A DNA stretch of 64,000 bases from Mesocentrotus franciscanus. Taxonomy: Eukaryota; Echinodermata; Echinoidea; Camarodonta; Strongylocentrotidae. This document shows positions 9,496 to 62,329 of the stretch, one piece after another. Each line of letters starts with the position of its first letter. The first letter of the stretch is position 1. The position numbers and the translations under genes are program-made. The DNA lies in contig CP137683.1 in the NCBI GenBank assembly GCA_037976565.1, positions 797,600-861,599 on the forward strand, in the 5' to 3' direction. The notes under the pieces are model-generated. The model was not told the DNA's origin and did no database searches. It saw only the letters and a list, made by a program, of their open reading frames with translations.

Positions 9496-10429
9496 GAGGA
9501 GAGGGTAGCCCAATTCCATCTGTTGTAAATAACTGACACAACTTTTAATTAGAAAATGTATTACACTGATGGCTATAATTTGACCCAGTGAACGGGATGT
9601 CCATTCTTATATCAATAAAAGTATCTGATTGAAAAAAACAACTCTTGGATGATTTGATATCGTGGAAAACTGTATACTTTCATGTGAAATTGTTTGATTA
9701 ATCATTTACTCTGACTTTTTGCTGTCGTAAATATTCTCTTTAAAAAGAAAGAAAATGAAAGAGAGCAAGAAAACCCGAGAAAATAAGTAATATTGACCTT
9801 TACATTTCCCCGATTAGATAAAAGATAATGACGATGTCAGTGGTTATGAAATATGGAGATGGATTCCATTTGCAATTGAAATTCACATTTATCTCTTTTG
9901 AAAACTAAGATAGAAAAATGGAGAAACGTTGATGCAGATGCGTTCAGAAATTGCAACGATCATTCGTATTACAGTGAGAGTGTTTTCCATGAAATCATAA
10001 TTGCTTTTTCGATTTTCTATATTACAGGAATTTATTCAATACAAAACCCTTTTATCTAAAGTTCACTTCTTTGGACAACATAGGACATGATAGAAAATGC
10101 AAGGGAATTGTGCTCTTGTCTTAGAAACGTCAGATGAGACTGTGCAGTAAAACTAAAAGTAAAAAGAATATAAGGTGTGATATTCATCTCTATTGATCAT
10201 ACTCATTCACATGTATATCCTATTAGCATTGTATCATGAGTATCAATATATATTTTATTTTATACTCACTCCAAGATCCTAATCAAATGATTGGTCATGC
10301 GCGGTCACGTGTGATTTACTGAGCCGGCCTATCCCTTATGGAACAATCACAGTGTTACCACATAGTGAACCACACTGTGAACCACATAGTCAAACCCAGT
10401 GTGGTACCACAGCGTGCTACCACATGTGG

Positions 10430-10735
10430 GCCACATGTGATTTTGGGACATGTGGTAACGCTGTGGTGTACTATGTGGTGCGTACCCCATAGTACACCAC
10501 AGCGTTACCACATGTCCCAAAATCACATGTGGCCCACACTGTGGTATCAACCACATAGTATACCACATTGTTACCACATAGTACACCACAGCGTTACCAC
10601 ATGTCCCAAAATCACATGTGGCCCACACTGTGGTATCAACCACATAGTATACCACAGCGTTACCACATAGTACACCACAGCGTTACCACACGTCCCAAAA
10701 TCACATGTGGCCCACATGTGTTGGCACGCATAACT
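10430..10735. repeat. 89-bp direct repeats plus an inverted copy
   Basis: TCCCAAAATCACATGTGG recurs at 10515, 10604 and 10693 (the last preceded by CACG instead of CATG), a spacing of exactly 89 bp. An inverted copy, CCACATGTGATTTTGGGACA, lies at about 10431, so 10430-10540 forms a palindrome. Within the unit, CCACA starts at 10551, 10563, 10574, 10586 and 10597: spacings of 12, 11, 12 and 11 bp. Frames of 110 residues (plus) and 102 residues (minus) follow from the repeat and look nothing like a known protein. Confidence 0.85.
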
Positions 10736-11270
10736 AACACATAATTACCACATAGTCCACCACACTGTGGCAAATACTACATAGTCTGGTAAACTGTGGC
10801 ATCCACCACATTGTCTGGTAAACTGTGGCATCCACCACATAGTCTATGACACCCTCCAGATGATGAAATGAATTAGTAATTTACGCTTTAAGTAGCATTT
10901 GTACTAATTAATTTTGCCAATTGCAACAATTAACAAAGCATCACTGGTTCATCTGCAATTTCCAATGTAAAAGCATTGGGAATAGGTAGGATTTTTTTTC
11001 ACTGTATCATACAACTTTCCATATACTTGTATTTTATTGAATATATTTTAGTTCATAGTTAATATTTCCCTAATTCATGTTTAATTAAATGTAATTTATA
11101 CAAAGTAGTAAAATGTCCTAATAACTGGCAATTATATTTTGTAGTACTTTTGAAATGAATTGCATATAACTAAATAATCAGTAATTTCCAAATATGCTTT
11201 AAATTCAGATAAATTGTATAAAAACATAGATCTGCACGCACCCCATATTCATTATGCAAATGAACTGGTG

Positions 11271-11425
11271 TCAACTGGTTCGACTGGAAATATGCCCACG
11301 GACCAGTTTTCAACTGGTGCAACTGGAAATATGCCTACAGACCAGTTTAATATCAACTGGTGTAACTGGAGATATGCCAACAGTCAGGTATCGACTGGTT
11401 CAACAGGATATAAGCCCACAGATGT
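11271..11425. repeat. About 40-bp tandem repeat, four copies
   Basis: TCAACTGGT-type starts occur at 11271, 11310, 11353 and 11391, giving periods of 39, 43 and 38 bp. Each copy continues with an ACTGGAAATATGCC-like block. It is translatable as an STGNMPTDQF-like peptide, but the variable period breaks the frame, so I treat it as non-coding. Confidence 0.8.
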
Positions 11426-11429
11426 GGAT

Positions 11430-12570
11430 ATTATTTTGTGGTAAACCACATGATCTCAAAATCTCACACTGACAATATACTGTGAACACAGAGTTTACAC
11501 ATAGTTCAGTACATACCACAGTGTGGTATATATGTGTCACTCTGTGTTAAATATGTACGACTCTGTGGTAAACCACATGATCTGAACCCCACACTGTAGC
11601 AATACTGTGACCACAAAGTTAACCCATAGTTCAATACATATACCACTGTGGTAAATATGTGTCACTCTGTGTTAAATATGACCGAACCCAACACTGTGAC
11701 AATACTGTGAGCACAGAGTTTGCACATAGTTAAATACCTACCACACTGTGGTAAATATGTATAACTCTGTGTTAAATATGTACCACTATGTGGTAAACCA
11801 TATGTTTTGAACCCCATACTGTGAAAATACTGTGATCACAGAGTTTACACATAGTTCAGTACATACCACACTGTGGTAAATATGTGTCACTCTGTGTAAA
11901 ATATGTAATACGACTATGTGGTAAACCACATGATTTGAACCACACACTGTGACTATACTGTGAACACAGAGTTTACACATAGTGTAGTACACACCACACT
12001 GTGGTAAATATGTGTCACTTTGTGTTAAATATGTACGACTATGTGGTAAACCACATGATTTGAACCCTCACATTGTGACTATACTGTGAACACAGAGTTT
12101 ACACATAGTGCAGTACATACCACATTGTTGTAGATATGTGTCACTCTGTGTTAAATATGTACGACTATGTGGTAAACCACATGATTTGAACCCCACACTG
12201 TGACAATACTGGGAACACAGAGTTTACACATAGTTCAGTACATACCACAGTGTGGTATACATGTGTCACTCTGTGTTAAATATGTACGACTATGTGGTAA
12301 ACCACATGATTTGAACCCCACACTGTGACAATACTGGGAACACAGAGTTTACACATAGTTCAGTACATACCACAGTGTGGTATACATGTGTCACTCTGTG
12401 TTAAATATGTACGACTATGTGGTAAACCACATGATCTGAATCCCACACTGTGGCAATACTGTGACCACAGAGTTAACACATAGTTCAATACATATACCAC
12501 TGTGGTAAATATGTGGTACTCTGCGTCAAGTATGTCAGTTTATGTGGATATTATGTGGTAAACCACATGG
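11430..12570. repeat. About 125-bp tandem array, nine to ten units
   Basis: The landmark AACCACATGAT (or a variant) occurs at 11443, 11571, 11796, 11923, 12049, 12175, 12300, 12425 and 12561. Periods are 125-128 bp for most steps, 225 bp where one unit has lost its landmark and about 30 bp, and 136 bp at the end. Each unit contains short dyads such as TGTGGTAAACCACA, ACCACACTGTGGT and AACACAGAGTT. The 12175, 12300 and 12425 units are nearly identical, which suggests recent local amplification. Confidence 0.9.
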
Positions 12571-12926
12571 TCTGAAACTCCACACTGTGATAACAATGTG
12601 AACACATAATGTCCACACAGTTTACACATAGTTGAATATGTGAACATAGTGTGGCAACACTGTGATTGTTCCATAAGGGATTGCACGCTTTTTCAGTGCG
12701 CAGTAGTGCGCGTAGAGGTTAGAGCGCTTAATACTGCGTGTGCATGGGCCTATTCTTGCGCAGCATTATGCGTAAATGGGTATAGAGGTAAGTGCGCTTT
12801 ATGTGTGCGCACTAAAATTAAGCCTTATTAAACTTGAGATTTATTTGTCAGCCTAGCCGTACTGTCACGAAACAATCTTGAATGAATTCTTTTTACATCA
12901 AATAAAAAAGATATATGAGTTTCGTT

Positions 12927-13103
12927 GTATAAAACAAATGATGCATGTTTTCATTCGTTTATTATACGATCTATCCGCCCTCGTTGATGCTGTGTGTATC
13001 TATCGCACTCAGCCTAACGGCTTTGTGCAATAGATGCACACAGCCTCAACTCGAGTGCGGATAGATCGTATAATGAACTCATGCGCATGCATTATTTGTA
13101 TAC
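12927..13103. mobile_element. Palindromic hairpin element, GTATACAAATAATGCATG family, copy 1
   Basis: The ends are GTATAAAACAAATGATGCAT on the left and ATGCATTATTTGTATAC on the right, complementary apart from a 3-bp indel. The arms continue with ATACGATCTATCCGC paired to GCGGATAGATCGTAT, then CTGTGTGTATCTAT paired to ATAGATGCACACAG. A short loop lies near 13015. The length is 177 bp with no coding capacity. The copy at 22147-22324 has matching ends and length but a different stem. Confidence 0.8.
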
Positions 13104-15703: not shown

Positions 15704-16909
15704 TTAAAGAGTTTTTATATATCCAATAAATATACTACCAAAATTAAATTTTTCTAAACTTTTATAAAGAAAACCCCAACTTATTTGATCGAAAGCCTTT
15801 TCTAGATCAAAAAAGATAACAACTCCGGATTTCTCTTTTTCTTCAAAATAACATACTACATCATCGATCAAACGAATATTGTTCCCAATAAAACGTCCTT
15901 TAAGATATGCATTTTGATCAGAATCAATACAAACATTTAACACTTTTTTCAACCTTCCTGCTAAAGCAGATGCTAATATTTTATAATCAGTATTTAGGAG
16001 ACTTATCGGCCTCCAATTTGAAATATTTTCTTTGTCGCCTTTCTTATGCAGAAGGGTTATGACAGCTCTAGTTTGTGAAATGGGTAAATTTCCTACTAAC
16101 AATGATTTTTTGAATAACTTTAACATAATATATTTCAACTTATTCCAAAAGAATTGGTAAAACTCAAAAGTCAAACCATCTGAACCTGGACTTTTTCCTT
16201 TTTTAGTCCCATTTAGGGCGTCATTACATTCTGTAAGTGTTATTTCTGAATCACAGTATCTCTTTTGCTTTTCACTTAATACATTATCAACCTTTGTGTT
16301 CTTAAGATAATCATTTACTTCATTCTCTTTTCCTCTAGCCGAATACAAACGATAAAAATATTCAACTTCAGCTACAATTATATCTTTCATATTTCTGTAT
16401 ATTATTCCATTAACATTTACTTTAAACATATTCTTTAACTTAAAGTTTCTTTTTTCTAAACCTAAAAAGTATTTAGTATTTCGCTCACCATCTTTATACC
16501 ACTTGATTTTGGACCGTATTTGTGCACCATGTATTTCGTATTCATAAAATTCTGACAATTGCCTTCTAACATGAGACAATTCGTTATCTTGAATTTCATT
16601 TAATATACCAAGACTTGATAAACGATTTAATCTATCTTGTAAGAAAAACTGTAAGCCTTTTCTTACCCTTGCCTTATTAATACAATAGTTAATTGACATG
16701 TGTCTTATTTTCTGTTTGAAAGTGTCCCACAAAACCGATATATTCTCTTTTTTTAATTGTAATTTTTCTTCTAAGACATTAATAAGAGAAATGACATTCT
16801 TCTGATAAACATCATCTTGCAAAAGTGAGTTATTCAGTTTCCAAATTCCTTTGCCTTTTTTTGCGGCCTTAAATTCGAATTTTAAATACACCGCATTATG
16901 GTCTGACAT
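15704..16909 (-). pseudogene. LINE ORF2: end of endonuclease, linker and N-terminal reverse transcriptase
   Basis: This 401-residue frame is the longest credible coding remnant in the window. It opens with MSDHNAVYLKF, whose SDH is the conserved last motif of the apurinic-type endonuclease. It then has a long Lys-rich linker with KDGERNTKYFLGLEKR, typical of L1/Tx1 ORF2. RT motifs follow: SPGSDGLTFEFYQFFW (about residue 240), AVITLLHKKGD, NWRPISLLNTDYKI, and FFDLEKAFDQISW (about residue 370), where the first catalytic Asp is present. A frameshift at about 15702 separates it from the GCPVS/LADD half. Another near 16915 separates it from the rest of the endonuclease. The Met start is a consequence of that frameshift. 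Confidence 0.9.
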
Positions 16910-22324: not shown

Positions 22325-25300
22325 CATAATTATTTACTCCTTATTCCTTACGGCCTAAAATCAGAAAGCAAAATCACTAATGCTTGTTATGTTATATCGT
22401 ACGTACTTGAATATCAGTCTTATGACTAACCATTATGAGACCCCACTATCATGATATGAGTTTCAAAGTTTAATAAAGTTCTTTCTGAATGGGGTGAGCA
22501 GCTGTTTCATAATAGAATATTACGGATGGATCTTCGTCTTTTATAATCTGCAGTAAGTAACACATATGTTTGTTGATTATAGTAACATGAGCCAGCATAT
22601 TCCTATCTATGCTTTTAGAAAGCATAGCATATACCTGAGGCACAAATCATACACAGCAGTAAGGTAGCTCTCGAAAACACGGTGTTCTTCTCAAGATATT
22701 ATTTATTTCACCTCAAATGGGTCAGCGGTTGGCTTCGTAAGGCAAGAAAATCTCCTCCGAAAGTGACACCCAATCCTAAACCTTTGCTTTCATCATGCGT
22801 GTTCGACTATTATAAGAATCCAGAACGGTAAACATGGAGGTGGAACCAGGATTGTCTAAGAAGGGGTGGAGGTGGTGGGCGATGGTTGAACATTTCCCGA
22901 AATTAATGTTTCCCATGAACATTATGTGAGGGGGGGGGGGTGATAAATATATAATTCCCCTATAGTTAAGAATCAAGAATATATCAATTTTAGCCATTTA
23001 TATTGGGGGAGGGGGCTGCAGTATCAGTTGGGGGTCACCTAGGCGCCCTCTGGATCAGTCTAGTATGTAACCTATATCCAACCTAATATTCTGGAATAAC
23101 TCATCACCACCTCTCTTCGTTCGAGGTATTCGGGAATCATCTTTCGCTGCGACTAGCGGCGGGGGTAATCAAAGATGAAAATCATCTGATGAATTCCACA
23201 GAAAGGAACAGCGAATTTAGGCATTTAGGAACGGGAGTGGACGGAGATGATGGTGGACAAAGCCGAGATAATTCTCCCGACGTAATCAAATCAGATATTA
23301 CAGTTTAGCTGATGATTTTATTAAGATGACCGCCTGACCAGAGCGTAGCGTGGACATGTTCAAATATTAAGCAATGGTAAACTTGATTTATGTTCATTTT
23401 TCATTAAAGCACTGCCATGTCTAGGTCTGAATGTTATAATTATTATATCGGACTTGGCCGCGTTTACAAATGTATAACAAACTTCTATAGACATATGACA
23501 AAACAGATATTCTATGGTTTCGTAGTGATCAATTACTCGTAATTATTTTGATAACACTGGACTGCAGTAGTAAATCTTATGTTGTGCCTACTTTATGTTT
23601 CTGTACTGATATTAGAGAACATATTGGAAGATGTAGAGGAAAACATTCATTGAGACAAAAGATAAAATTCTATCTATTTTGCAATTCTCTTTTTTTCTCC
23701 ATTTGTGAGAAAAGGAACGCATTAAGAACATGAACCTAGTTTACCCACTCCGATAATTTCTAGACTGTTTTGTAGGTTTATATTTCCATCATATCTCAGA
23801 TATCCCTAAATATTTTGGAGAGAAAGTATGTCATGTTCGGAAAAAATATCAAATAATGCCTCAAATAAGTTGAAGTAGCCCTTTTAAGCTTACACATGTA
23901 TACGAACGTGTCCTGGTTCTCAAGGTTCTCAAGGTTCATTTGAAGATACTATTGTCCCTTTTGCAGCCAACATCAAATTCTGTAGAACATTGTAGGAATT
24001 ATGAATATGTCATGTATGTCCTATCTGTGAAATTTAGACATCAGCAGTGTCTTAGTATTCAAATTATGCAAGGAAACCCATTTACTTTCTAGACTTCACT
24101 GTCAGATACTATTGAGTGACTGAATGACCTTTTTTTTCTTTGGTAATAACATACACAAAATGAGCTGTAAAGATACATGAGCATTTGTCTACATCAATAA
24201 CCTACTTCTTGTAATGGCCAAAATTAAACTGATTGAATTTTTGTGCAGCACAAAACGTACGACCATTCGGTACAAGGGTCTGAAAATCAGACTATTTACT
24301 AAAGTGATTGCAATACTAAAGTCGATTTGACAACTAATGGTCGTTATTCCCACAAAAATATATTTTCAAGCCCTTTCTTGTTTTGAAGGAAGTTCTAAAT
24401 TAGTATTTTCATTCAAATGCCATTGGAATTCAACCTTTACATTTTTTTGGTCTGCAAATGTCTGTTAAACAATATTCGCGATAACGAAACTACTCAAGTA
24501 AATATAGCGAGGAAAGAACATTATTATCCGAGTATTATAATATGCCTCAGGAAATTATGCAATATAATTTCATTTTGAATTAAAAAAAAATCATATCTAG
24601 GAAGTGATAATACTTTTATGCTCAAGATAGTGGTAGTCTTACACAAGGAGATAGTTGAAAATACAGTTTCAATTTTCATGATTACATAATGGAACATGTC
24701 GTGTAGTGAATGGGAGAGGAAGAATATGAAAAGAAGGAATACAAAAATAATAATACACATATTAATTAAAAGGTAAAACAAACGAAATATCATGATAGTG
24801 ATGATAAAATAGATGACGATTCAAGATTAAACATAGGGTAGCATGACGTAGGTTTTTACCATGTAAAGGAAAACAACAATGACAAGTACCAAATATAAGT
24901 TAAATGAAGGATAAACGATGCTGACTAACAAGGAGGAGGAAAGTGTTGCTTATATGAACAGAAGTCCTTGGAGTACTCACGCCATTTTATTTCTCCCTAA
25001 CCAAGTGATGTATTGCTTATCCAATTGCTCTTTACCGCGCTGACATCACTAGGATAGAAAACTTGTCCGTTATTTTCAGTGGGTGAATCTAAAAGGGGCG
25101 GGGACTGGGGAGGATAATTTCCTGCTACATCGATGGACCACTTATAAATTCATTCGATAATCATGGTGGAAAATAAGTGAAAAATTGATGAAATAAACTA
25201 CTTGACAATAAATCTTGCAGTCAATATCAAAACTTAACATATATACACAAACTTACGCACACACAAGCACTCGCATAAATACACACACATACATCTCCCG

Positions 25301-49204: not shown

Positions 49205-49700
49205 GTTCCTGTCGGTCGCGTTGCCTGCCGGTCTCGTTGCCTGTCGGTCTCGTTGCCTTTCGGTCTCGTTGCCTGTCGGTCGCGTTGCCTGTCGGTCTCG
49301 TTGCCTGCCGGTCTCGTTGCCTGTCGGTCTCGTTTCATGTCGGTCTCGTTGCCTGTCGGTCTCGTTGCCTGCCGGTCTCGTCGCCTGTCGGTCTCGTTGC
49401 CTGTCGGTCGCGTTGCCTGTCGGTCGCGTTGCCTGCCGGTCTCGTTGCCTGTCGGTCTCGTTGCATGTCGGTCTCGTTGCATGTCGGTCTCGTTGCCTGT
49501 CGGTCTCGTTGCCTGCCGGTCTCGTCGCCTGTCGGTCTCGTCGCCTGTCGGTCTCGTTGCCTGTCGGTCTCGTTGCCTGCCGGTGTCGTTGCCTACCGGT
49601 CTCGTTGCCGGTCGGTCTCGTTGCCTGTCGGTCTCGTTGCCTGCCGGTCTCGTTGCCAGTCGGTCTCGTTGCCTGTCGGTCTCGTTGCCTGTCGGTCTCG
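49205..49700. repeat. 16-bp minisatellite, about 31 copies
   Basis: The unit is GTTGCCTGTCGGTCTC with variants (CTGCCGG, GGTCGC, GTCGCC, GCATG). The period is 16 bp throughout. The plus strand of the unit has no A and the minus strand has no T, so no stop codon can arise in any of six frames. That accounts for the overlapping frames of 183, 228 and 159 residues on plus and 96 and 82 residues on minus, all with 16-residue period. I treat none as a gene. Confidence 0.95.
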
Positions 49701-58821: not shown

Positions 58822-58947
58822 GTGGGAAGAGAAGAAAAGAAAGAAAGGGAGAGACAGAGAGACAGAGAGACAAAGCGGGATATAGAGAGATAGAGAGAGA
58901 GAGAGAGTATGTGTATGTGTGTGTGAAAGAGAGAGAAAGAAATAGAA

Positions 58948-58982
<35 letters not shown>

Positions 58983-59040
58983 AAATTGAAAAAAAAAGAA
59001 AATGGACATAGTGAAAAATAGAGAGGTAATGATAGATAGA
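58822..59040. repeat. GA-rich simple repeat with (GT)n patch
   Basis: GACAGAGAGACAGAGAGACA, then GA runs, a GTATGTGTATGTGTGTGTG patch near 58907-58925, and GA/GAAA runs leading into the minisatellite. It has no regular 17-bp period and is distinct from what follows. Confidence 0.85.
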
Positions 59041-62000
59041 AAAGAGAAGAGAGAGATGAAGAGAAGAGAGAGAGAGAGATGAAGAGAAGAGAGAGAGATG
59101 AAGAGAAGAGAGAGAGATGAAGAGAAGAGAGAGGTGAAGAGAAGAGAGAGATGAAGAGAAGGGAGAGAGAGAGATGAAGAGAAAAGAGATAGAGATGAAG
59201 AGAAGAGAGAGAGATGAAGAGAAGAGAGAGATGAAGAGAAGAGAGAGAGATGAAGAGAAGAGAGAGATGAAGAGAAGAGAGAGATGAAGAGAAGAGAGAG
59301 AGATGAAGAGAGAGAGAGATGAAGAGAAGAGAGAGAGATGAAGAGAAGAGAGATAGGTGAAGAGAAGAGATAGATGAAGAGAAGAGAGAGAGAGAAGAGA
59401 AGAGAGAGAGATGAAGAGAAGAGAGAGAGATGAAGAGAAGAGAGAGATGAAGAGAAGAGAGATAGATGAAGAGAAGAGAGATAGATGAGAGAGAGAGAGA
59501 GAGAGATGAAGAGAAGAGAGATAGGTGAAGAGAAGAGATAGATGAAGAGAAGAGAGAGAGAGATGAAGAGAAGAGAGAGATGAAGAGAACAGAGAGAGAG
59601 ATGAAGAGAAGAGAGAGATGAAGAGAAGAGAGATAGGTGAAGAGAAGAGAGATAGATGAAGAGAAGAGAGAGATGAAGAGAAGAGAGATAGGTGAAGAGA
59701 GAGAGAAAGATGAAGAGAAGAGAGAGATGAAGAGAAGAGAGATAGGTGAAGAGAAGAGAGATAGGTGAAGAGAAGAGAGATAGGTGAAGAGAAGAGAGAT
59801 AGATGAAGAGAAGAGAGAGAGAGAGATGAAGAGAAAAGAGATAGAGATGAAGAGAAGAGAGAGAGATGAAGAGAAGAGAGAGATGAAGAGAAGAGAGAGA
59901 TGAAGAGAAGAGAGAGGTGAAGAGAAGAGAGATAGATGAAGAGAAGAGAGAGATGAAGAGAAGAGAGAGATGAAGAGAAGAGAGATAGGTGAAGAGAAGA
60001 GAGAGAGAGATGAAGAGAAGAGAGAGATGAAGAGAAGAGAGATAGGTGAAGAGAAGAGAGATAGATGAAGAGAAGAGAGAGATGAAGAGAAGAGAGAGAT
60101 GAAGAGAAGAGAGAGATGAAGAGAAGAGAGAGATGAAGAGAAGAGAGATAGGTGAAGAGAAGAGAGATAGATGAAGAGAAGAGAGAGATGAAGAGAAGAG
60201 AGAGAGAGAGATGAAGAGAAAAGAGATAGAGATGAAGAGAAGAGAGAGAGATGAAGAGAAGAGAGAGATGAAGAGAGAGAGAGATGAAGAGAAGAGAGAG
60301 ATGAAGAGAAGAGAGATAGGTGAAGAGAAAAGATAGATGAAGAGAAGAGAGAGAGAGAGATGAAGAGAAGAGAGAGATGAAAAGAAGAGAGAGAGATGAA
60401 GAGAAGAGAGAGATGAAGAGAAGAGAGATAGGTGAAGAGAAGAGAGATAGATGAAGAGAAGAGAGAGAGAGAGAGATGAAGAGAAAAGAGATAGAGATGA
60501 AGAGAAGAGAGAGAGATGAAGAGAAGAGAGAGATGAAGAGAAGAGAGATAGATGAAGGGAAGAGAGAGATGAAGAGAAGAGAGAGATAGGTGAAGAGAAG
60601 AGAGATAGATGAAGAGAAGAGAGAGAGAGATGAAGAGAAAAGAGATAGAGATGAAGAGAAGAGAGAGAGATGAAGAGAAGGGAGAGATGAAGAGAAGAGA
60701 GAGATGAAGAGAAAAGAGAGAGATGAAGAGAAGAGAGATAGATGAAGAGAAGAGAGAGAGAGAGAGATGAAGAGAAGAGAGATAGGTGAAGAGAAGAGAG
60801 ATAGATGAAGAGAAGAGAAAGAGAGAGAGATGACGAGAAATGAGATAGAGATGAAGAGAAGAGAGAGAGATGAAGAGAAGAGAGAGATGAAGAGAAGAGA
60901 GAGAGATGAAGAGAAGAGAGAGATGAAGAGAAAAGAGAGAGATGAAGAGAAGAGAGATAGATGAAGAGAAGAGAGAGATGAAGAGAAGAGAGAGATGAAG
61001 AGAAGAGAGAGATGAAGAGAAGAGAGATAGGTGAAGAGAAGAGAGATAGATAAAGAGAAGAGAGAGATGAAGAGAAGAGAGATAGATGAAGAGAAGAGAG
61101 AGAGATGAAGAGAAGAGAGATAGGTGAAGAGAAGAGAGATAGATGAAGAGAAGAGAGATAGATGAAGAGAAGAGAGAGATGAAGAGAAGAGAGATAGATG
61201 AAGAGAAGAGAGAGATGAAGAGAAGAGAGATAGATGAAGAGAAGAGAGAGATGAAGAGAAGAGAGAGAGATGAAGAGAAGAGAGATAGATGAAGAGAAGA
61301 GAGATAGATGAAGAGAAGAGAAAGAGAGAGAGATGAAGAGAAATGAGATAGAGATGAAGAGAAGAGAGAGAGATGAAGAGAAGAGAGAGATGAAGAGAAG
61401 AGAGATAGGTGAAGAGAAGAGAGATAGATGAAGAGAAGAGAGAGATGAAGAGAAGAGAGAGATGAAGAGAAGAGAGATAGGTGAAGAGAAGAGAGAAAGA
61501 TGAAGAGAAGAGAGAGATGAAGAGAAGAGAGATAGGTGAAGAGAAGAGAGAGATGAAGAGAAGAGAGACAGATGAAGAGAAGAGAGATAGATGAAGAGAA
61601 GAGAGATAGATGAAGAGAAGAGAGAGATGAAGAGAAGAGAGATAGGTGAAGAGAAGAGAGAGAGAGATGAAGAGAAAAGAGATAGAGATGAAGAGAAGAG
61701 AGAGAGATGAAGAGAAGAGAGAGATGAAGAGAAGAGAGATAGGTGAAGAGAAGAGAGATAGATGAAGAGAAGAGAGAGATGAAGAGAAGAGAGATAGTGA
61801 AGAGAAAGAGAGAGATGAAGAGAAGAGAGAGAGAGATGAAGAGAAGAGAGATAGGTGAAGAGAAGAGAGACAGATGAAGAGAAGAGAGATAGATGAAGAG
61901 AAGAGAGATAGATGAAGAGAAGAGAGAGATGAAGAGAAGAGAGATAGGTGAAGAGAAGAGAGAGAGATGAAGAGAAAAGAGATAGAGATGAAGAGAAGAG

Positions 62001-62320
62001 AGAGAGATGAAGAGAAGAGAGAGATGAAGAGAAGAGAGATAGGTGAAGAGAAGAGAGATAGATGAAGAGAAGAGAGAGATGAAGAGAAGAGAGATAGGTG
62101 AAGAGAAGAGAGAGAGATGAAGAGAAGAGAGAGAGAGATGAAGAGAAGAGAGATAGGTGAAGAGAAGAGAGATAGATGAAGGGAAGAGAGAGATGAAGAG
62201 AAGAGAGATAGATGAAGAGAAGAGAGATAGATGAAGAGAAGAGAGAGAGAGAGATGAAGAGAAGAGAGATAGAGATGAAGAGAAGAGAGAGAGATGAAGA
62301 GAAGAGAGAGACAGAAAGAA
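59041..62320. repeat. 3.3-kb polypurine minisatellite with higher-order structure
   Basis: The basic unit is GATGAAGAGAAGAGAGA (17 bp) with 19- to 23-bp variants containing ATAG, ATAGG or extra GA. T is the only pyrimidine of note, appearing at GATG/GATAG once or twice per unit. Blocks of units are themselves repeated: 61681-61795 equals 61981-62095, a period of 300 bp. The 1172-residue frame on the minus strand is SSLHLSLFSS-type sequence from this array, opened because TAG, TAA and TGA cannot readily occur on that strand. I do not call it a gene. Confidence 0.95.
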
Positions 62321-62329
62321 AGACAATGG

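Follow-up and report, generated by a model that had tools for sequence, protein, structure and literature searches.

Structure of the element

We analyzed a window of 64,000 bp from the genome of the sea urchin Mesocentrotus franciscanus (C18:797600-861599), which carries an element of 2,347 bp (positions 10333-12679) with 30-bp inverted tips (CCCTTATGGAACAATC...). Its two arms are filled with the short word CCACA, or its complement TGTGG, and the core between them is free of it. It is a DNA transposon of the cut-and-paste type, non-autonomous, in which no gene could be recognised. By analogy with transposons described in plants, we put at roughly 70% the probability that its arrays offer a transposase or an accessory protein binding sites specific to the family. 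The genome searched comprises 773 Mb in 21 contigs. The gene next to copy L053 codes for a protein with its best matches in Strongylocentrotus purpuratus (80% identity across the full query), followed by Lytechinus (55-58%), in keeping with a sea urchin host.

An inverted-repeat scan recovered a pair of 32 nt at the element ends (97% complementary), in agreement with an earlier note on this DNA that had described inverted ends. However, this pair includes an outer AT on each side, which is target DNA: other copies carry AA, TA, CA, CT, GC, GG and further dinucleotides outside CCCTTATGG, matching on both sides. The AT was counted into the inverted repeat because it is its own reverse complement. 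Since it is a target duplication, the element runs from 10333 to 12679 with tips of 30 bp. Thus, the earlier claim that the ends mark a defined unit stands, but the tips are not 32 bp long. An Rfam scan of the window gave no match. The parts of the element, and one further site in the window, are listed here with strand and basis.

10331-10332, no strand: left copy of the 2-bp target-site duplication (AT); from flanking dinucleotides of copies and the empty sites of three other copies.
10333-10362, plus strand: left terminal inverted repeat, CCCTTATGGAACAATCACAGTGTTACCACA; from inverted-repeat and word scans and from a tip that recurs genome-wide (69 matches with at most 2 mismatches vs 0 in a reversed-pattern control).
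10363-10852, plus strand: left arm, a CCACA/TGTGG word array with 12/23-bp, 89-bp (2.7 copies) and 29-bp (2.8 copies) sub-repeats, containing a large palindrome; the window copy is one of 32 copies, out of 34, with 62-81 words per kb.
10425-10538, no strand: left-arm palindrome of 114 bp, with 55-bp arms that are 98% complementary and a 4-nt spacer; from the inverted-repeat scan.
10853-11261, plus strand: word-free, AT-rich core, about 85% identical to the core of a sister family with the word CCAGTT; from a sequence match of 10853-11422.
11262-11422, plus strand: about 3.8 copies of a 39-bp CAACTGG-based unit, common to the sister family and expanded there; from a repeat scan and the sequence match.
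11423-12649, plus strand: right arm, in which nine units of 100-128 bp (125 bp in most cases) form a CCACA/TGTGG array, with TGTG words at a phase of about 10.4 bp in eight of nine units; from repeat, word and phase analyses.
12650-12679, minus strand: right terminal inverted repeat, ending ...CCATAAGGG; from the inverted-repeat scan and tip searches.
12680-12681, no strand: right copy of the 2-bp target-site duplication (AT); from flanking dinucleotides of copies.
24209-24210, no strand (seen on the minus strand): paralogous empty target site for copy L062, dinucleotide AA; from flank comparison.

Copies, target-site duplications and empty sites

The tips recur as inward-facing pairs at dispersed sites. 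A genome search with 23 bases of the tip gave the 69 matches listed above (at most 2 mismatches; none with the reversed pattern), whereas shorter queries were less specific: 18 bases gave 92 matches vs 11 in the reversed control, and the exact 12-base tip CCCTTATGGAAC gave 96 vs 37. By a hand count of tip and array matches, the genome holds about 41 loci of this CCACA family. Our copy set consists of 40 loci with flanks retrieved, the copy on C21 being left out. Both ends are readable in 35 of them (at most 5 mismatches in a 22-base tip), so the tips do occur elsewhere as pairs, as the earlier note had proposed to check. Five loci with only one readable end (L050, L053, L068, L075 and L076) were dropped before duplications were counted.

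Identical dinucleotides flank both sides of 29 of the 35 two-ended copies. They are of 11 kinds (AT 6, TT 6, AA 5, TA 3, CA 3, and 1 each of CT, GC, AG, GG, CG and TC), and the duplicated pair is composed of A and T only at 20 sites. Matching dinucleotides are missing from six copies (L045, L046, L051, L057, L058 and L065), each of which has a damaged or altered tip.

The earlier note had also suggested looking for an empty site and a target duplication, and both were found. Three copies (L078, L062 and L064) have paralogous empty sites, each holding a single 2-bp target, and two of these lie in the window. The L078 insertion site is present uninterrupted in a repeat inside L066, and that of L062 is present both in the flank of L064 and in the window at 24209-24210; in each case the joined flanks and one 2-bp target run straight through. 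The L064 insertion site matches the window at about 24042, where the flanks are continuous but the junction mismatches (TC instead of TT). Because the empty sites carry one copy of the 2-bp target, the elements must have inserted with a 2-bp duplication. Paired inverted tips at dispersed sites, the duplication and the empty sites together identify a cut-and-paste transposon of the terminal inverted repeat type.

Target preference was analyzed at the 29 sites with perfect duplications, read in both orientations to give 58 half-sites. Position -5 is a purine in 49 half-sites (p = 9e-8) and position -6 a pyrimidine in 45 (p = 3e-5); no p value below 0.025 was obtained at any of the 26 further positions examined. 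This symmetrical pyrimidine-purine step on either side of the target suggests that bendable DNA may be favored for insertion.

The copies are closely related. Median pairwise identity over 33 copies is 95.6%, with a maximum of 99.96%, and L044, L072 and L074 are at least 99.9% identical although they lie on three different contigs. These near-identical copies point to a recent spread of the family. Two further observations concern individual loci. Window positions 23940-24460 form an interspersed repeat of a kind that two other copies, L062 and L064, have used as a target. In addition, L045 and L046, which lie about 38 kb apart on C3, have flanks that are 98-99% identical in inverted orientation, so that this pair probably reflects a local inverted duplication rather than two insertions.

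Word arrays in the two arms

The element holds 50 CCACA and 35 TGTGG words, 85 in total, compared to 17.7 +/- 3.7 (maximum 33) in 500 dinucleotide shuffles of the same sequence. The earlier note had described an interior made almost wholly of these words. This enrichment is borne out, but it does not extend to the middle of about 570 bp, which is nearly word-free: positions 10860-11262 contain none, and the 39-bp CAACTGG array at 11262-11420 contains one. The commonest 6-mer in both arms is ACCACA (26 in the 490 bp of the left arm and 36 in the 1,227 bp of the right), CACATAGT and ACTGTG are further recurrent arm words, and CCACA/TGTGG words are also present in the inner tips.

This layout is characteristic of the family. 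All 34 core-bearing copies lack the words in the core and have 28-35 words per kb to the right of it, a part that varies between 689 and 2030 bp in length. Left arms reach the density given above except in L077, where a 65-bp remnant has 46 words per kb, and in L066, where an insertion lowers the value to 23 per kb. The latter insertion, of about 0.9 kb (L066 1305-2217), is a repeat that also occurs in the flanks of L077 and L078. The two arms are built differently, from 89- and 29-bp units on the left and from units of about 125 bp on the right, yet they share the word.

To express variability, we used the pairwise difference across 33 aligned copies, with a null in which the word mask was displaced along the arm. 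In the left arm, the difference is 0.0325 inside words vs 0.0506 outside, and 4.6% of mask shifts are as low; the corresponding values for the right arm are 0.0343, 0.0533 and 2.5%. Arm words are thus about 36% less variable between copies than the remaining arm sequence, and the core differs by 0.0553. This apparent constraint lends moderate support to a role for the words.

The TGTG words of the right arm are also regularly placed, with a phase of about 10.4-10.6 bp (R of 0.94-0.99 in eight of the nine units and 0.76 in the ninth) that none of 1000 random placements matched in four of the nine. The CACA words of the same arm show no consistent phase across the nine units. As these units are copies of one another, their phase results do not count as nine separate tests, and the TGTG phase could itself stem from a 21-bp sub-repeat. 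For both reasons, we do not take this phase as independent evidence of function.

A sister family with a different word

The middle of the element (10853-11422) matches at least seven other loci at 84-85% identity (40 of 135 candidates scored). Parts of two copies of a sister family were examined, and both copies have a 2-bp duplication: C13:22070825-22072374 starts with CCCAGAAGGAAAAACCAGTT, ends in the complement and is flanked by CC/CC, and C2:43726663-43728431 has one change per tip and is flanked by AC/AC. Their arms (four segments from the two copies) contain 56-71 CCAGTT/AACTGG words per kb and 0-1 CCACA per segment. A search with the sister tip gave 87 matches with at most 2 mismatches, vs 4 in the reversed control. 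Counted by hand, these form 16 inward pairs of 856-4657 bp, the longest at C15:31138409-31143065 (4.66 kb) and C20:15937990-15941495 (3.5 kb), which are candidates for an autonomous element. A further tip variant, L085, is likewise of the CCAGTT type, with 47 words per kb.

The start of the core has 66 matches in the genome and none in the control. Of these, 33 have a CCCTTATGG tip no more than 2.5 kb away, and 24 have a CCCAGAAGG tip within the same distance. The remaining nine have neither (C2:38187858, C3:9846017, C1:59515445, C2:39349605, C2:39445091, C11:11308311, C11:31441245, C14:24621620 and C20:13703391) and may represent either incomplete copies or families whose word is different.

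The CCACA and CCAGTT families therefore share CCC...GGG ends, the presence of the arm word in the inner tip, the 2-bp duplication and a common core, but their words differ. AACTGG/CCAGTT is absent from the arms of all 34 CCACA-family copies, and only about four CAACTGG units stand beside the core. Because these units are confined to the core side, the core of the CCACA family was probably derived from a CCAGTT-type element, and we likewise infer the direction of word change between the families.

Another combination is seen in L067 (3438 bp, flanked by CA/CA), which joins CCACA arms and tips to a different core of about 2 kb, and in L068, a 91-93% identical relative with the same design. There is thus more than one pairing of arms with cores. 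Six open reading frames (ORFs) of the alternative L067 core have no Pfam match above the cut-off (best E value 0.013). Separately, the end of the CAACTGG array has an exact 17-bp counterpart at position 2825 of L067 (E value 0.004), which is not where it would be expected.

Proposed mechanism and alternatives

We propose that a transposase encoded elsewhere acts in trans, cutting at the CCC...GGG tips and duplicating 2 bp. The CCACA/TGTGG words of both arms would provide many putative binding sites for this transposase or for an accessory DNA-binding protein, and protein loaded on them would bring the ends together or activate the element. Tandem duplication within the arms would multiply the sites. 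The word itself would be family-specific and exchangeable, following the specificity of its protein, in that the arms and inner tips of the sister family, which has the same core and end type, carry CCAGTT/AACTGG instead. The earlier note had offered a non-autonomous transposon that amplifies binding sites as one possibility; the transposon is confirmed by the paired tips, duplications and empty sites and by the arrays always occurring with tips among the matches listed, and binding is what we infer.

Several results weigh against this proposal. No binding protein, transposase or autonomous partner was found with the tip search or with the profiles PF02992 and PF13359. The 96 exact CCCTTATGGAAC tips, inspected by eye, form no inward pair within 20 kb beyond the known copies. 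The tnp2-type transposase profile PF02992 has 4 matches in the genome, none inside a tip pair, although a distant transposase could escape this profile, and the PIF/Harbinger-type profile PF13359 has at least 152 (150 of 716 candidates scored), none inside a tip pair among the matches listed. Regular spacing does not help in the left arm, for which the earlier note had proposed words one helical turn apart. The run that it described at 10551-10597 is correct (CACA at 10552, 10564, 10575, 10587 and 10598, with spacings of 12, 11, 12 and 11), but a spacing of 11.5 bp drifts off a 10.5-bp helix. The words of this arm are not in helical phase (best period 12.65 bp), and only the right-arm TGTG words are. 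Moreover, the CAACTGG array, which is also a repeat, is likewise low in variability (0.0408), the tips (0.0376) are no better conserved than the words, and word conservation may be inflated, since misaligned repeat units still agree at the words. Finally, the arrays could have expanded by slippage without any function.

This last point leads to a reading in which the transposon is the same but its arrays are by-products of slippage and unequal exchange, processes that would expand whatever sequence adjoins the ends, and its words serve no binding function. The nested tandem units of the arms (29, 39, 89 and 125 bp) are what such processes would leave, the variable length to the right of the core fits gain and loss of units, and repeats generally appear better conserved in the alignment, as the CAACTGG array illustrates. 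Such processes do not account as readily for a single word, in both orientations, that fills two arms made of different units (89 vs 125 bp), for a core that is word-free in 34 of 34 copies, for words that vary less than their neighboring sequence, or for a sister family that repeats the design with another word. We therefore judge this reading unlikely. Still less probable, though compatible with binding by a transposition protein, is that host transcription factors recognise the words, which the element would have amplified for activity in the germ line or early embryo. ACCACA/TGTGGT resembles what we take to be the RUNX core site (TGTGGT), and CAACTG presumably a Myb site; no 6-mer is more frequent than ACCACA in either arm, and the sister arrays contain CAACTG. 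However, short motifs easily match some factor, the recurrent words CACATAGT and ACTGTG do not suit RUNX, and the presence of words in the inner tips is better suited to a transposition protein.

The earlier note had considered a hairpin-forming array homogenised by gene conversion, and the 114-bp palindrome of the window copy is of this kind, as are left-arm palindromes with arms of at least 50 bp (53-78 bp; a heuristic scan with spacers of up to 12) in 18 of 35 copies. The other 17 copies lack 50-bp arms, and seven of these (L041, L042, L047, L049, L055, L059 and L070) have perfect duplications and therefore moved; this weakens the idea to the point where we hold it very improbable. Ordinary open-ended satellite DNA would explain the tandem arrays inside the element, and interior arrays without tips would have been its mark according to the earlier note. 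No such array is among the matches listed for the left-arm query (40 of 40 candidates scored) or the right-arm query (38 of 38), counts that are lower bounds, and every listed match falls within a locus that carries one tip or both. Together with the tips, the 2-bp duplications and the empty sites, this rules out satellite DNA. We thus favor arrays that would serve as binding sites of a transposon over each of these alternatives.

Other features of the window

Just to the right of the element lies another inverted repeat (12952-12983 and 13052-13083), with 32-nt arms that are 88% complementary and 68 nt apart. A 401-aa ORF on the minus strand (15704-16909) matches the reverse transcriptase family RVT_1 in its C-terminal part (E value 7.6e-18). 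Two tandem arrays were also noted. Positions 49208-49700 contain 30.8 copies of the 16-bp unit CCTGTCGGTCTCGTTG, with overlapping ORFs in three frames, two of which were scanned and gave no Pfam match. Positions 58827-62323 form a 3.5-kb GA-rich array of 19/36-bp units that yields a mechanical ORF of 1172 aa without a Pfam match.

Comparison with known transposons

The general design, in which arrays of short motifs lie beside the ends, is already known in plants. The statement in the earlier note that no described family has it does not hold, as CACTA subterminal repeats and VANC-target arrays are close precedents. The combination of tips and duplication fits none of the superfamilies that we compared. 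A description of this element family was not found in the open-licence literature (titles and abstract openings), with Repbase outside the search.

CACTA elements are described as having motifs of 10-20 bp, arrayed subterminally in either orientation, that TNPA-type proteins recognise, and related soybean families as differing in their subterminal motif (PMC2613891, PMC8978399). For the CMC group, 2-bp duplications are reported as possible, with CAC tips (PMC6004678), a duplication range of 2-4 bp is given for CMC/EnSpm (PMC4482050), and termini of the wider group are described as mostly CA..TG (PMC12730594). The urchin families resemble CACTA/EnSpm in their inverted tips, their arm arrays of short motifs in both orientations, a 2-bp duplication within the 2-4 bp range and a motif that differs between related families. 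However, the tips of both urchin families are CCC...GGG rather than CAC...GTG, the arrays make up about three quarters of the element, and no linked transposase was seen at the tips. As the tips differ, we do not accept membership in CACTA.

VANDALs are plant Mutator-like elements, and we know of no VANC-like protein, a sequence-specific anti-silencing factor that binds the arrays, in animals. VANC proteins are reported to bind dense 9-bp motifs in the non-coding tandem repeats of VANDALs, and the target motif to differ between families and to evolve by gain and loss of repeats (PMC5735166; PMC10398659). Arabidopsis VANDALs thus resemble the urchin elements in their dense short motif within non-coding tandem repeats, their turnover of units and their family-specific motif, but VANC21 motifs are described in one orientation (PMC5735166), whereas the urchin words occur in both.

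Among animal DNA transposons with a 2-bp duplication, ISL2EU (PHIS) is reported to duplicate AT within A|AT|T and usually to have GG tips (PMC4482050). The urchin duplication is AT in only 6 of 29 cases and takes 11 dinucleotides, and the tips are CCC, which excludes ISL2EU. Likewise, Tc1/mariner elements duplicate TA, which accounts for only 3 of 29 cases. The 4-bp duplication of piggyBac is TTAA. Its 5'-CC..GG-3' ends (PMC10045372, which also gives the duplication as 4 bp) are of a similar type, but the urchin duplication is 2 bp long and includes many dinucleotides, so piggyBac was rejected as well. In Hermes, an hAT element, multiple BED domains of the transposase are reported to bind one transposon end (PMC10368747). 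This subterminal binding resembles what we propose for the putative urchin sites; hAT elements duplicate 5-8 bp (PMC4482050) vs 2 bp in the urchin.

It is conceivable, though we regard it as doubtful, that the two families represent an undescribed animal superfamily with CCC...GGG tips, a 2-bp duplication of any dinucleotide and a pyrimidine-purine preference 5-6 bp on either side. In that case, a single body would have swapped its recognition vocabulary, its arms and inner tips being rewritten from CCAGTT to CCACA along with the binding protein while the core was kept. Given a recent spread, a search for the trans-acting protein may still succeed, and the effect of the number of sites may be open to testing. 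Should the words prove to be binding sites, this pair of families would amount to a natural experiment in which a transposon has rewritten dozens of recognition sites and retained its core, a turnover comparable to that of VANC-target and CACTA subterminal motifs, but in an animal.

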